Part shown: positions 43,932 through 46,828 of the stretch, in pieces
Position numbering within the stretch: position 1 is the first letter of the stretch
How the letters are laid out: every line of letters starts with the position of its first letter
Origin: Vulcanimicrobium alpinum
GTDB lineage: Bacteria; Vulcanimicrobiota; Vulcanimicrobiia; Vulcanimicrobiales; Vulcanimicrobiaceae
Direction of reading: 5' to 3'
DNA length: 64,000 bases
Assembly: GCF_027923555.1 (NCBI RefSeq)
Contig: NZ_AP025523.1
Coordinates: forward strand, 3,352,484 to 3,416,483
Notes under the pieces: generated by a model
Told to the model about the DNA's origin: nothing
What the model saw: the letters and a program-made list of their open reading frames with translations, nothing else
Databases searched by the model: none
Made by a program: the position numbers and the translations under genes

Positions 43932-44236
43932 CGCCGCAGGGCGATCCAGGCGATCGTGGCGACGGTCATCACGGCGACCCCGACATACCCCAGGATCGTA
44001 CCCTGCTGGAGGATTTCGTCACCGGCGCGCACGCCGCGGCGGATCGCAACGGCATAGTCGCCGGAGACGTTCGCCGCGAGCGCGCCCGCGACGAGCAGCG
44101 CGATCGAAAGCAGAAACGTGACGAACAGATCGAACTCGGCCTGCGGCCAATGTGTGCCGCCCCACGATCGCGATGCTTTGAACCCGGCGATCGCGAGCAG
44201 CAGCACCGCGAGCCCCGCGCCGACGCGCGCGATCAT
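43928..44236 (-). CDS. Small membrane protein (102 aa)
   Basis: A 102-residue protein with about three hydrophobic helices (VGAGLAVLLLAIAGF, FVTFLLSIALLVAGALAANV, ILGYVGVAVMTVATIAWIAL). It is coupled by ATGA to the 85-residue membrane protein, and the two probably form a unit ahead of glyA. No family is recognised. Confidence 0.7.
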   Translation of the reverse strand: MIARVGAGLAVLLLAIAGFKASRSWGGTHWPQAEFDLFVTFLLSIALLVAGALAANVSGDYAVAIRRGVRAGDEILQQGTILGYVGVAVMTVATIAWIALRR

Positions 44237-44293
44237 CGTGCGGCGCGTCCGCGGCGCATGGTGATCGGATTCGACTGCGGAAGGGCGGCGGAG

Positions 44294-44989
44294 ATGCGCA
44301 TTGCTGTCTCGAGTTCGTCGTTCCGGCGTCCGCTCGCCTCCGGTCGCCTCACGCAGCTCGAGTGGGTCGAGCGGTGCGCGTCCGCGCTGAACGTCGACGG
44401 CGTGCTCGCGGATATCGCCGACTTCCCGCGGACGGATGTCGAGTACGTCGCTCAGTTGCGCAAGGTCGCGATCGACTTGGGGCTGGTGGCATTCGGGGTC
44501 GATGCGCCGGGTCTGCTCGCGCCGGGGATGCCGGCCGCGGAGCGCGATGCGGCGCTGGCGGTCGCCCGCGAGTTCGGGGCTTCGATCGTGCGCACGGCGC
44601 TACCGCCGCCGGGGGAGGTGCCGCCGGCGAGCTTCGTCGAGGCGGTCGCGGTCGCGAAGGCGGCGAGCAAGGCGGCCAAGGCGGCGAACGTGACGCTGGT
44701 GGTGCCGCCGCAGGCGGGGACGCTCGGACCCGATTTGGGCGAGGTCCGGCACCTGCTCAAGGACGTCGACAGCGCGTGGCTGCGGGCGTGTCCGCCGGCG
44801 TCGGCCGATCCGGCGGCGTTCGGGCCGAAGGAGCGGTTTCCGGCGTTCAGCTTTGCGGCGGGGGACGATCCCTCGGGGGTGAGCGAGGCGGCGCGGCGAG
44901 GGTGGATTCTGCTCGCGGTGCCGGCAGGGGAAGCGCCCTGGGAAGAGGTGGGCGCGGTGGCGGCGACCTTGCGGGCGGGGGTGCGGTAA
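44294..44989 (+). CDS. TIM-barrel-like protein resembling sugar-phosphate isomerases
   Basis: A 231-residue protein beginning MRIAVSSSSFRRPLASGRLTQ. The layout (LEWVERCASALNVDGVLADI, then EYVAQLRKVAIDLGLVAFGVDAP) resembles xylose-isomerase-like TIM barrels. It is shorter than the usual 260-300 residues, and the metal-binding His/Glu/Asp set is not obvious, so it may be a degenerate or non-catalytic member. ATG 44294 is preceded by a weak AAGGG. It is followed by a repeat cluster. Confidence 0.65.
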   Translation: MRIAVSSSSFRRPLASGRLTQLEWVERCASALNVDGVLADIADFPRTDVEYVAQLRKVAIDLGLVAFGVDAPGLLAPGMPAAERDAALAVAREFGASIVRTALPPPGEVPPASFVEAVAVAKAASKAAKAANVTLVVPPQAGTLGPDLGEVRHLLKDVDSAWLRACPPASADPAAFGPKERFPAFSFAAGDDPSGVSEAARRGWILLAVPAGEAPWEEVGAVAATLRAGVR

Positions 44990-45011
44990 AGGCGGGCGGC
45001 GCGAGCGGAGC

Positions 45012-45133
45012 TGCGCTTCGACAAGCTCAGCGTGACGGGGCTCGGCGTGACGCGGGGTCAGCGTGACGCGGGGTCAGCGTGACGCGTCTCGGCGTGACGC
45101 GGGTCAGCGTGACGCGGCTCGGCGTGAGAGGGG
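45012..45133. repeat. Dispersed repeat with seven tandem units
   Basis: A core TGCGCTTCGACAAGCTCAGCG (from 45012) is followed by about seven direct units of 14-17 bp with consensus YTCRGCGTGACGCGGG. Related copies lie at 57283-57338 and, as a fragment, at 61731-61750. It sits directly after a stop codon in the gap before the structured RNA. Confidence 0.75.
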
Positions 45134-45155
45134 CGACACGACCGCAACGGCCGTC

Positions 45156-45279
45156 TGGAACCAAGTTGTCGACCTGCCTGTGCAGGTGGGTGCGGCCCGG
45201 GCGCCCAGTGTTCAGACCCGAAGGGCGAACATCCGGTCGTATCCGGAGCTGATGCTCCCTAGGTTTCGACGTTGGTCCA
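45156..45279. ncRNA. Candidate structured RNA with five stacked helices
   Basis: A closing helix joins 45156-45172 to 45266-45279 (TGG, ACCAA and GTCGA segments against TCGAC, TTGGT and CCA). Inside, four hairpins follow one another almost without spacers. They are 45173-45186 (CCTGC/GCAGG), 45187-45207 (TGGGTGC/GCGCCCA, one G-U), 45209-45231 (TGTTC and CCC against GGG and GAACA) and 45232-45247 (TCCGG/CCGGA, with an alternative GGAGC/GCTCC at 45245-45258). It lies between two convergent genes and has no coding frame. Strand and family are unknown; it does not match tRNA, tmRNA, 5S, SRP or RNase P RNA as I know them. The remaining gap to 45358 shows nothing clear. Confidence 0.5.
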
Positions 45280-45358
45280 CCACATGGAACCTCCGCGAAC
45301 CACCGCAGTCGTTGTCGCTCCGGTATCGTATACCCATCGTCAAGACTTGACAGCAGAC

Positions 45359-46828
45359 TTACGTGCGCACGCGCCTGCCGAGTGCGGCACCGTACACGTC
45401 GATCGCGCGCTTGCGCGCTTCGGCATGGTCGACGATCGGAGCGGGATAGTCGCGGCCGATGACGCAGCCGTACTCGGCCTGCAGGAGCGGCGGCAGGGTC
45501 CACGGCTGATGGACGTACATCGACGGCACCTTGACGAGCGCGGGGATCATCGCGCGCACGAATGCGCCGTCCGGATCGAACTTCTCGCCTTGGAGCGTCG
45601 GGTTGAAGACGCGGAAGTACGGCGCCGCGTCGGTCCCCGTCGACGACGACCACTGCCAGCCGCCGTTGTTGGCCGCCAGATCGGCGTCGGCGAGGTGCCG
45701 TTCGAAGTAGCGCTCGCCGTCGCGGTAGTCGCCGAGTAGATGCTTGGTATAGAACGACGCGACGATCATGCGCAGGCGGTTGTGCATCCAGCCCGTCGTG
45801 TTAAGCTGGATCATCGCCGCGTCGACGATCGGGTAGCCGGTCGTGCCGTCGCGCCACGCGTTCCAGCGGCGTTCGTCGCGTTCGTACGCGATCGCCGTCG
45901 CCGCCTCGACGAACGGTTGATGCGCGACGCGCGGGAAATGCACGAGCAGCTGCTGGTAGAAATCGCGCCACACCAGCTCGCCGGTCCACGTGTCGATTCC
46001 GGTGCGCGACGCACCGCGCGCGGCCGCCGCGCGCTTCGCTGCGGTGTGGACCAGCGTGCGGATCCCGATCGTGCCGGCGCGCAGATGCGGTGAGAGATGC
46101 GATGTGCCGTCGAGCGCCGGGGCGTTGCGCCGTTCGGCGTATGTGTCGATCTCGTCCGTCAGAAACGCGCGCAGCAGCGATTTCGCCTGTGCGCTCCCCC
46201 CGCGCGGATAGCGCTCGCTCGATGCGTGGCCGTAGTCTTCGGGGCGCGGGACCTCGCAGGTCGCACCGATCGCATCGCGCGCGAGCAGCTTCGGCCCCGC
46301 TGCGCGTTCGGAGGCGACCGGCGGATGCGGCTCCGCGTCGAAGCGCGCATTCCAGCGCCGGCGATACGGCGTGTACACGGTGTACGGCTTGCCGCTCTCC
46401 TGCAGCACGTCGCGCGCGCCGAAGTACACGTGGTCGGTCTGAGCGTGCACGTCGAGGCCAGCGGCGCGCAGCGCGCGCTCGACGCCCTCGTCGCGGGCGA
46501 CCGCGTCGGGGTCGTAGTCGACGTTGTAGAAGACCGCGCGCGCGTCGATGCGGCGGGCCAAGCGCACCAGTTCGCCGGAGAAGTCACCCTCGAGGAGCGC
46601 GAGATCGGAGCCCTGCTGGCGAAGGCGCTCGCGCAGCACACCAAGCGAGTCGAAGAAGAACTGAACGATCGGCGGTCCGACGCGCGGTCCGCGCAGCAGC
46701 GGCGGATCGAGGACGAACGCGCACGCGATCCATTCGCTCGCTTCGGCGGCGCGGCGCAGCGCGACGTTATCGTCGAGCCGCAGATCGCGGCGCAGCCAGA
46801 CGAGCGAGAGCGGATACCGTTGGGCCAT
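45359..46828 (-). CDS. phrB: Deoxyribodipyrimidine photolyase
   Basis: A 489-residue class I CPD photolyase-like flavoprotein. The N-terminal antenna-binding half begins LVWLRRDLRLDDNVALRRA. The FAD half includes GELVWRDFYQQLL, GTTGYPIVDAAMIQLNTTGWMHNR and DADLAANNGGWQWSSSTGTD, and the end has YPAPIVDHAEARKRAIDVY. ATG 46828 puts the conserved start at residue 8. It repairs UV dimers using light, which fits a surface-exposed habitat. It is divergent from the epimerase gene with a 54-bp gap. Confidence 0.95.
   Translation of the reverse strand: MAQRYPLSLVWLRRDLRLDDNVALRRAAEASEWIACAFVLDPPLLRGPRVGPPIVQFFFDSLGVLRERLRQQGSDLALLEGDFSGELVRLARRIDARAVFYNVDYDPDAVARDEGVERALRAAGLDVHAQTDHVYFGARDVLQESGKPYTVYTPYRRRWNARFDAEPHPPVASERAAGPKLLARDAIGATCEVPRPEDYGHASSERYPRGGSAQAKSLLRAFLTDEIDTYAERRNAPALDGTSHLSPHLRAGTIGIRTLVHTAAKRAAAARGASRTGIDTWTGELVWRDFYQQLLVHFPRVAHQPFVEAATAIAYERDERRWNAWRDGTTGYPIVDAAMIQLNTTGWMHNRLRMIVASFYTKHLLGDYRDGERYFERHLADADLAANNGGWQWSSSTGTDAAPYFRVFNPTLQGEKFDPDGAFVRAMIPALVKVPSMYVHQPWTLPPLLQAEYGCVIGRDYPAPIVDHAEARKRAIDVYGAALGRRVRT

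Follow-up and report, generated by a model that had tools for sequence, protein, structure and literature searches.

A single-copy 6S RNA gene, absent from the published RNA gene count, lies between convergent TIM-barrel and photolyase genes in Vulcanimicrobium alpinum

The locus considered here lies in a stretch of 64,000 nucleotides of the Vulcanimicrobium alpinum genome (contig NZ_AP025523.1) that is referred to as the window. The locus is bordered by an ORF predicted to encode a TIM-barrel protein, found on the plus strand and ending at position 44989, and by a photolyase gene on the minus strand that ends at position 45359. A domain search revealed photolyase domains PF00875 and PF03441 in the product of the latter. 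The TIM-barrel protein (44216-44989) presented a weak match to AP_endonuc_2 (20.1 bits; cut-off, 31.1). Between these genes, positions 45010-45133 are occupied by a tandem array of about seven units of 15-16 bases (GGGTCAGCGTGACGCGG) that adjoins the 3' end of the RNA gene described below. The stretch around 45010-45050 is found again at more than 50 sites scattered over the genome, several of them forming inverted pairs with a spacing of some 50 bases, as REP/BIME elements do. No tRNA or tmRNA was found in the window. A phage origin of the locus was also considered and rejected, given the lack of any match among phage records.

The sequence between the two genes almost certainly contains a single-copy gene encoding 6S RNA, situated on the minus strand and served by a putative promoter of its own just past the photolyase stop codon. 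The features assigned to this gene are as follows, with the evidence for each in parentheses.

45135-45317, minus strand: 6S RNA (ssrS) gene, with the 5' end near 45314-45318 and the 3' end near 45135 (RF00013 and model R1 matches)
45348-45353, minus strand: -35-like hexamer CTGTCA, separated by a 17-base spacer from the -10-like hexamer (sequence)
45325-45330, minus strand: -10-like hexamer TACGAT (stops 7 bases short of the predicted RNA 5' end)
45339-45351, no strand assigned: perfect palindrome GTCAAG-T-CTTGAC (inside the promoter-like site)
45296-45313, minus strand: closing helix, 5' arm (covariation, 11 of 16 pairs)
45137-45153, minus strand: closing helix, 3' arm (covariation, as for the 5' arm)
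45274-45278, minus strand: helix P2, 5' strand GGACC, predicted pRNA template (97% of cells paired)
45170-45174, minus strand: helix P2, 3' strand GGUCG (GGU in common with the 3' bubble hairpin)
45260-45273, minus strand: putative 5' side of the central bubble (likeness to Escherichia coli and Bacillus subtilis 6S RNA)
45188-45259, minus strand: apical (internal) arm GGGAGC...GCACCC with a variable tip (consensus fold)
45172-45187, minus strand: 3' central-bubble hairpin ACCUGC...GCAGGU of 6 pairs (100% of cells paired, 40 sequences)

When the window was compared with Rfam at the gathering threshold, no RNA family was detected. The 6S RNA emerged only from a permissive search of positions 44950-45400, where RF00013 was matched on the minus strand from 45314 to 45135, covering model positions 1-187 of 187. 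The score obtained, 28.6 bits, is under the RF00013 gathering cut-off of 46.4 bits, a value that serves as a curation criterion of the database and does not describe a structural feature of 6S RNA. Besides 6S RNA, the permissive search (E up to 10) returned just a chance match to a miRNA. In a search of the whole genome (3.5 Mb) with RF00013, the same locus was the sole match (E = 8.4e-4). A covariance model prepared from 40 sequences of the V. alpinum family only (model R1, from alignment A1) matched 45317-45135 with a score of 159.6 bits, again as the sole significant match in the genome. With neither model was a second or better 6S gene found in the genome. The gene was thus overlooked because the copy in this bacterial family has drifted below the detection limit of Rfam.

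The distribution of the element was considered in three families, namely that of V. alpinum itself (f1), a sister family from the same order (f2) and a sister family from the same class (f3). By DNA similarity, 35 of 60 genomes, that of V. alpinum included, were found to carry the element, and all but one of them belong to f1. When RF00013 was run on 98 relatives, matches at the same places were obtained in f1, all under the cut-off (the best at 43.8 bits). A 6S RNA scoring over the cut-off, at up to 94 bits, was identified in 13 of 14 f3 genomes and in three of four f2 genomes. It is because these syntenic f2 and f3 orthologues pass the Rfam cut-off that membership in the 6S family is still claimed for the V. 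alpinum gene. Reciprocally, model R1 detected the certified 6S genes of f2 (98-106 bits) and f3 (34-51 bits) on the same strand and with ends within 4 bases. About half of the sequences in alignment A1 had been located by the Rfam model and the remainder by DNA similarity alone, such that this reciprocal test is strong yet not wholly independent of the Rfam model. Model R1 further identified one copy each in 86 of 99 f1 genomes, and in 53 of 55 when good-quality genomes were considered. The convergent TIM-barrel gene was found beside the RNA at 39 of 41 f1, 4 of 4 f2 and 11 of 13 f3 loci. This shared neighbor indicates that the RNAs of the three families correspond to the same gene at the same place. 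Finally, the most conserved 24 bases gave 32 exact matches in public genomes, all in Eremiobacterota, Vulcanimicrobiota or WPS-2 records except one labeled only 'bacterium', in agreement with the original prediction that the DNA came from an Eremiobacterota-like genome.

The structure of the RNA was next addressed using the 40 homologues of alignment A1, with shuffled letters and slid versions serving as controls. The consensus contained 37 pairs on the minus strand, as compared to 23 on the plus strand, with 95.1% of the cells being paired in the minus-strand fold. Changes on both sides were seen at 16 pairs, as opposed to 10.1 in shuffles and 3-9 when the alignment was slid. The closing helix, formed by the 5' and 3' ends of the RNA, accounted for 11 of these among its 16 pairs and was paired in 89.8% of cells. 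The strand was fixed as minus by the wobble pairs, with 140 G-U cells being counted as compared to 19 A-C cells. The window RNA has an open central bubble between helix P2 and the apical arm. In P2 (GGACC/GGUCC), the second pair alternates between G-C, G-U and A-U and remains unbroken in 40 of 40 sequences, and the A preceding C45271 is likewise invariant in 40 of 40. A 3' central-bubble hairpin is commonly reported for 6S RNA, although it is not universal. Here, the GGU at 45174-45172 is common to this hairpin and to P2, and the two therefore exclude each other. Every testable structural feature of 6S RNA was found in the V. alpinum gene, which is thus filed as 6S RNA.

The original prediction had placed a structured RNA at 45156-45279, taken to be a free-standing RNA or a 3' element rather than a 5' riboswitch. 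A conserved non-coding RNA with its own gene is indeed present, although it is wider (45135-45317) and lies on the minus strand. The compensatory changes that had been called for in homologues exist, but for the minus-strand fold. Likewise, the statement that the element resembles no known family gives way to the RF00013 match and the reciprocal R1 matches. The proposed helices do appear in the plus-strand minimum-energy fold of 45140-45290, where the ACCTGC/GCAGGT and GGAGC/GCTCC hairpins are accompanied by a closing helix and a long arm rich in GC. Still, the long closing helix (ACCAA/UUGGU plus GUCG/CGAC) was paired in only 45% of cells across the 40 homologues, which is the level of shuffles, and in about 56-62% in nine homologues from the same genus. 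Nor was the folding energy of this region beyond chance (plus strand, z = -1.59, with 15 of 200 shuffles being as good; minus strand, z = -0.36), and that of the full minus-strand RNA (z = -1.05) was no better than shuffles. With energies within chance, the claim would fail by the comparison with shuffled sequence that the original prediction had itself suggested, and it is the comparative evidence that decides. A switch was rightly suspected, although the refolding segment that is supported is the GGU at 45174-45172, shared by the hairpin and P2, and not GGAGC/GCTCC. The helices originally noted partly correspond to a mirror image of the 6S fold.

These observations bear on whether the locus instead holds a new plus-strand structured RNA or an element in the 3' UTR of the TIM-barrel gene. 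Such an element would be convergent to the photolyase gene and downstream of the TIM-barrel gene, and the plus strand does fold slightly better relative to shuffles than does the minus strand. The failure of the plus-strand closing helix to be conserved among homologues, the 140:19 wobble count and the presence of both the promoter-like site and the Rfam match on the minus strand nonetheless make this explanation very improbable. Just as improbable is an RNA polymerase-binding RNA that is 6S-like without being a true 6S RNA, such as Ms1. Although the same general rod shape, the score under the 6S cut-off and the description of Ms1 as being structurally related to 6S RNA (PMC9130861) could be so understood, syntenic orthologues from the same class reach 77-94 bits with the 6S model, and Rfam offers no other family except the chance miRNA match. 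A bidirectional terminator or a repeat-derived cluster of hairpins between convergent genes, devoid of any RNA function, would account for the inverted repeats between the convergent gene ends and for the dispersed repeat adjoining the RNA. Given the absence of a terminator-like site in the scan, the single copy in the genome and the near-invariant core retained across dozens of genera, together with the covariation, the chances of this last possibility are negligible. The preferred reading thus remains that of a 6S RNA gene.

Upstream of the gene, a minus-strand promoter-like site (CTGTCA-17-TACGAT, 45353-45325) was noted and is considered the putative 6S promoter. Homologues present GATAAT, TACGGT and similar hexamers at the -10 place, with related promoter elements having been kept. 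A scan for consensus promoters and terminators gave no matches; CTGTCA-17-TACGAT was not listed because its hexamers are too far from TTGACA/TATAAT. No U-rich terminator was found in the window downstream of the 6S 3' end, and several relatives show hairpins at that position. The 13-base palindrome inside the promoter-like site occurs nowhere else in the genome in exact form. The core of this palindrome, allowing 1-2 central bases, was seen upstream of 24 of 42 f1 and 13 of 13 f3 6S genes, being placed further upstream of the -10 element in f3. In one genome (G007:C17; L027, upstream of 1513-1698), additional bases separate the CTTGAC element from the -10 region of the 6S promoter, such that the palindrome lies further upstream. 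It was considered whether the f1 6S RNA represents a distinct subtype, the expression of which is set by a dedicated regulator reading GTCAAG-N-CTTGAC in the promoter. If true, this would constitute a 6S-specific control not described before. Two observations count against such a regulator, namely that part of the palindrome is the -35 box and that the shorter core is no commoner elsewhere than is a reversed control, and the idea is considered unlikely. A genome-wide regulon defined by the short form GTCAAG-CTTG was rejected on the basis of the same control.

Based on established 6S biology, the most likely function of the RNA would be to bind RNA polymerase containing the primary sigma factor and to be released upon pRNA synthesis. 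By imitating an open promoter, the RNA would bind the polymerase and keep the enzyme off genes, as in stationary phase. Upon return of nutrients, the polymerase would copy a short pRNA from the 5' side of the bubble. By likeness to E. coli and B. subtilis, this pRNA is predicted to start opposite C45271 and to read 5'-GUUGGUCCACC.... Its synthesis would open helix P2, making the GGU available to the 3' bubble hairpin, whose closure would help release the polymerase, as with E. coli-type 6S RNA, where the downstream helix opens and the 3' bubble hairpin forms (PMC8876501).

The unannotated 6S RNA gene is genuine, even if the kind of RNA is already well known. The published description of the V. 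alpinum genome lists 57 RNA genes, all rRNA or tRNA (PMC9758169), such that a gap in annotation is filled, and none of the papers searched combined Eremiobacterota with 6S RNA. More generally, the Rfam cut-off misses 6S RNA in every f1 member found, despite the gene being carried by nearly all good-quality genomes, and the f1 alignment could serve to extend the Rfam 6S model. At the same time, impressions gained from folding a single sequence can name the wrong strand, a matter settled by covariation and wobble pairs.

In terms of known systems, Ms1 of Actinobacteria is likewise an RNA polymerase-associated RNA related to 6S RNA, yet differs in lineage and in binding the core enzyme (PMC9130861), whereas the window RNA matches only 6S RNA in Rfam, a library that may not include an Ms1 model. 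With 6S/SsrS (RF00013), the V. alpinum RNA shares length, a full-length model match, the closing stem, the central bubble, the apical arm, the 3' bubble hairpin and its status as a single-copy gene of its own. It differs in that all f1 members found score under the Rfam cut-off and in the nearly invariant GCGCCCGGGCCGCACCCACCUG segment of f1. At the predicted pRNA start, the window RNA reads GACCAAC, where E. coli 6S RNA carries GAGCCGAU. As in E. coli-type 6S RNA, P2 and the 3' bubble hairpin compete for part of the P2 3' strand and are mutually exclusive, with the hairpin comprising 6 pairs here and 9 in E. coli (PMC8876501). In B. subtilis 6S-1 RNA, of which a central bubble collapse helix is a feature, a smaller 3' bubble hairpin likewise appears in the free RNA, and the pRNA, 5'-GUUCGGUC, resembles that predicted for the window RNA, 5'-GUUGGUCC (PMC8876501).
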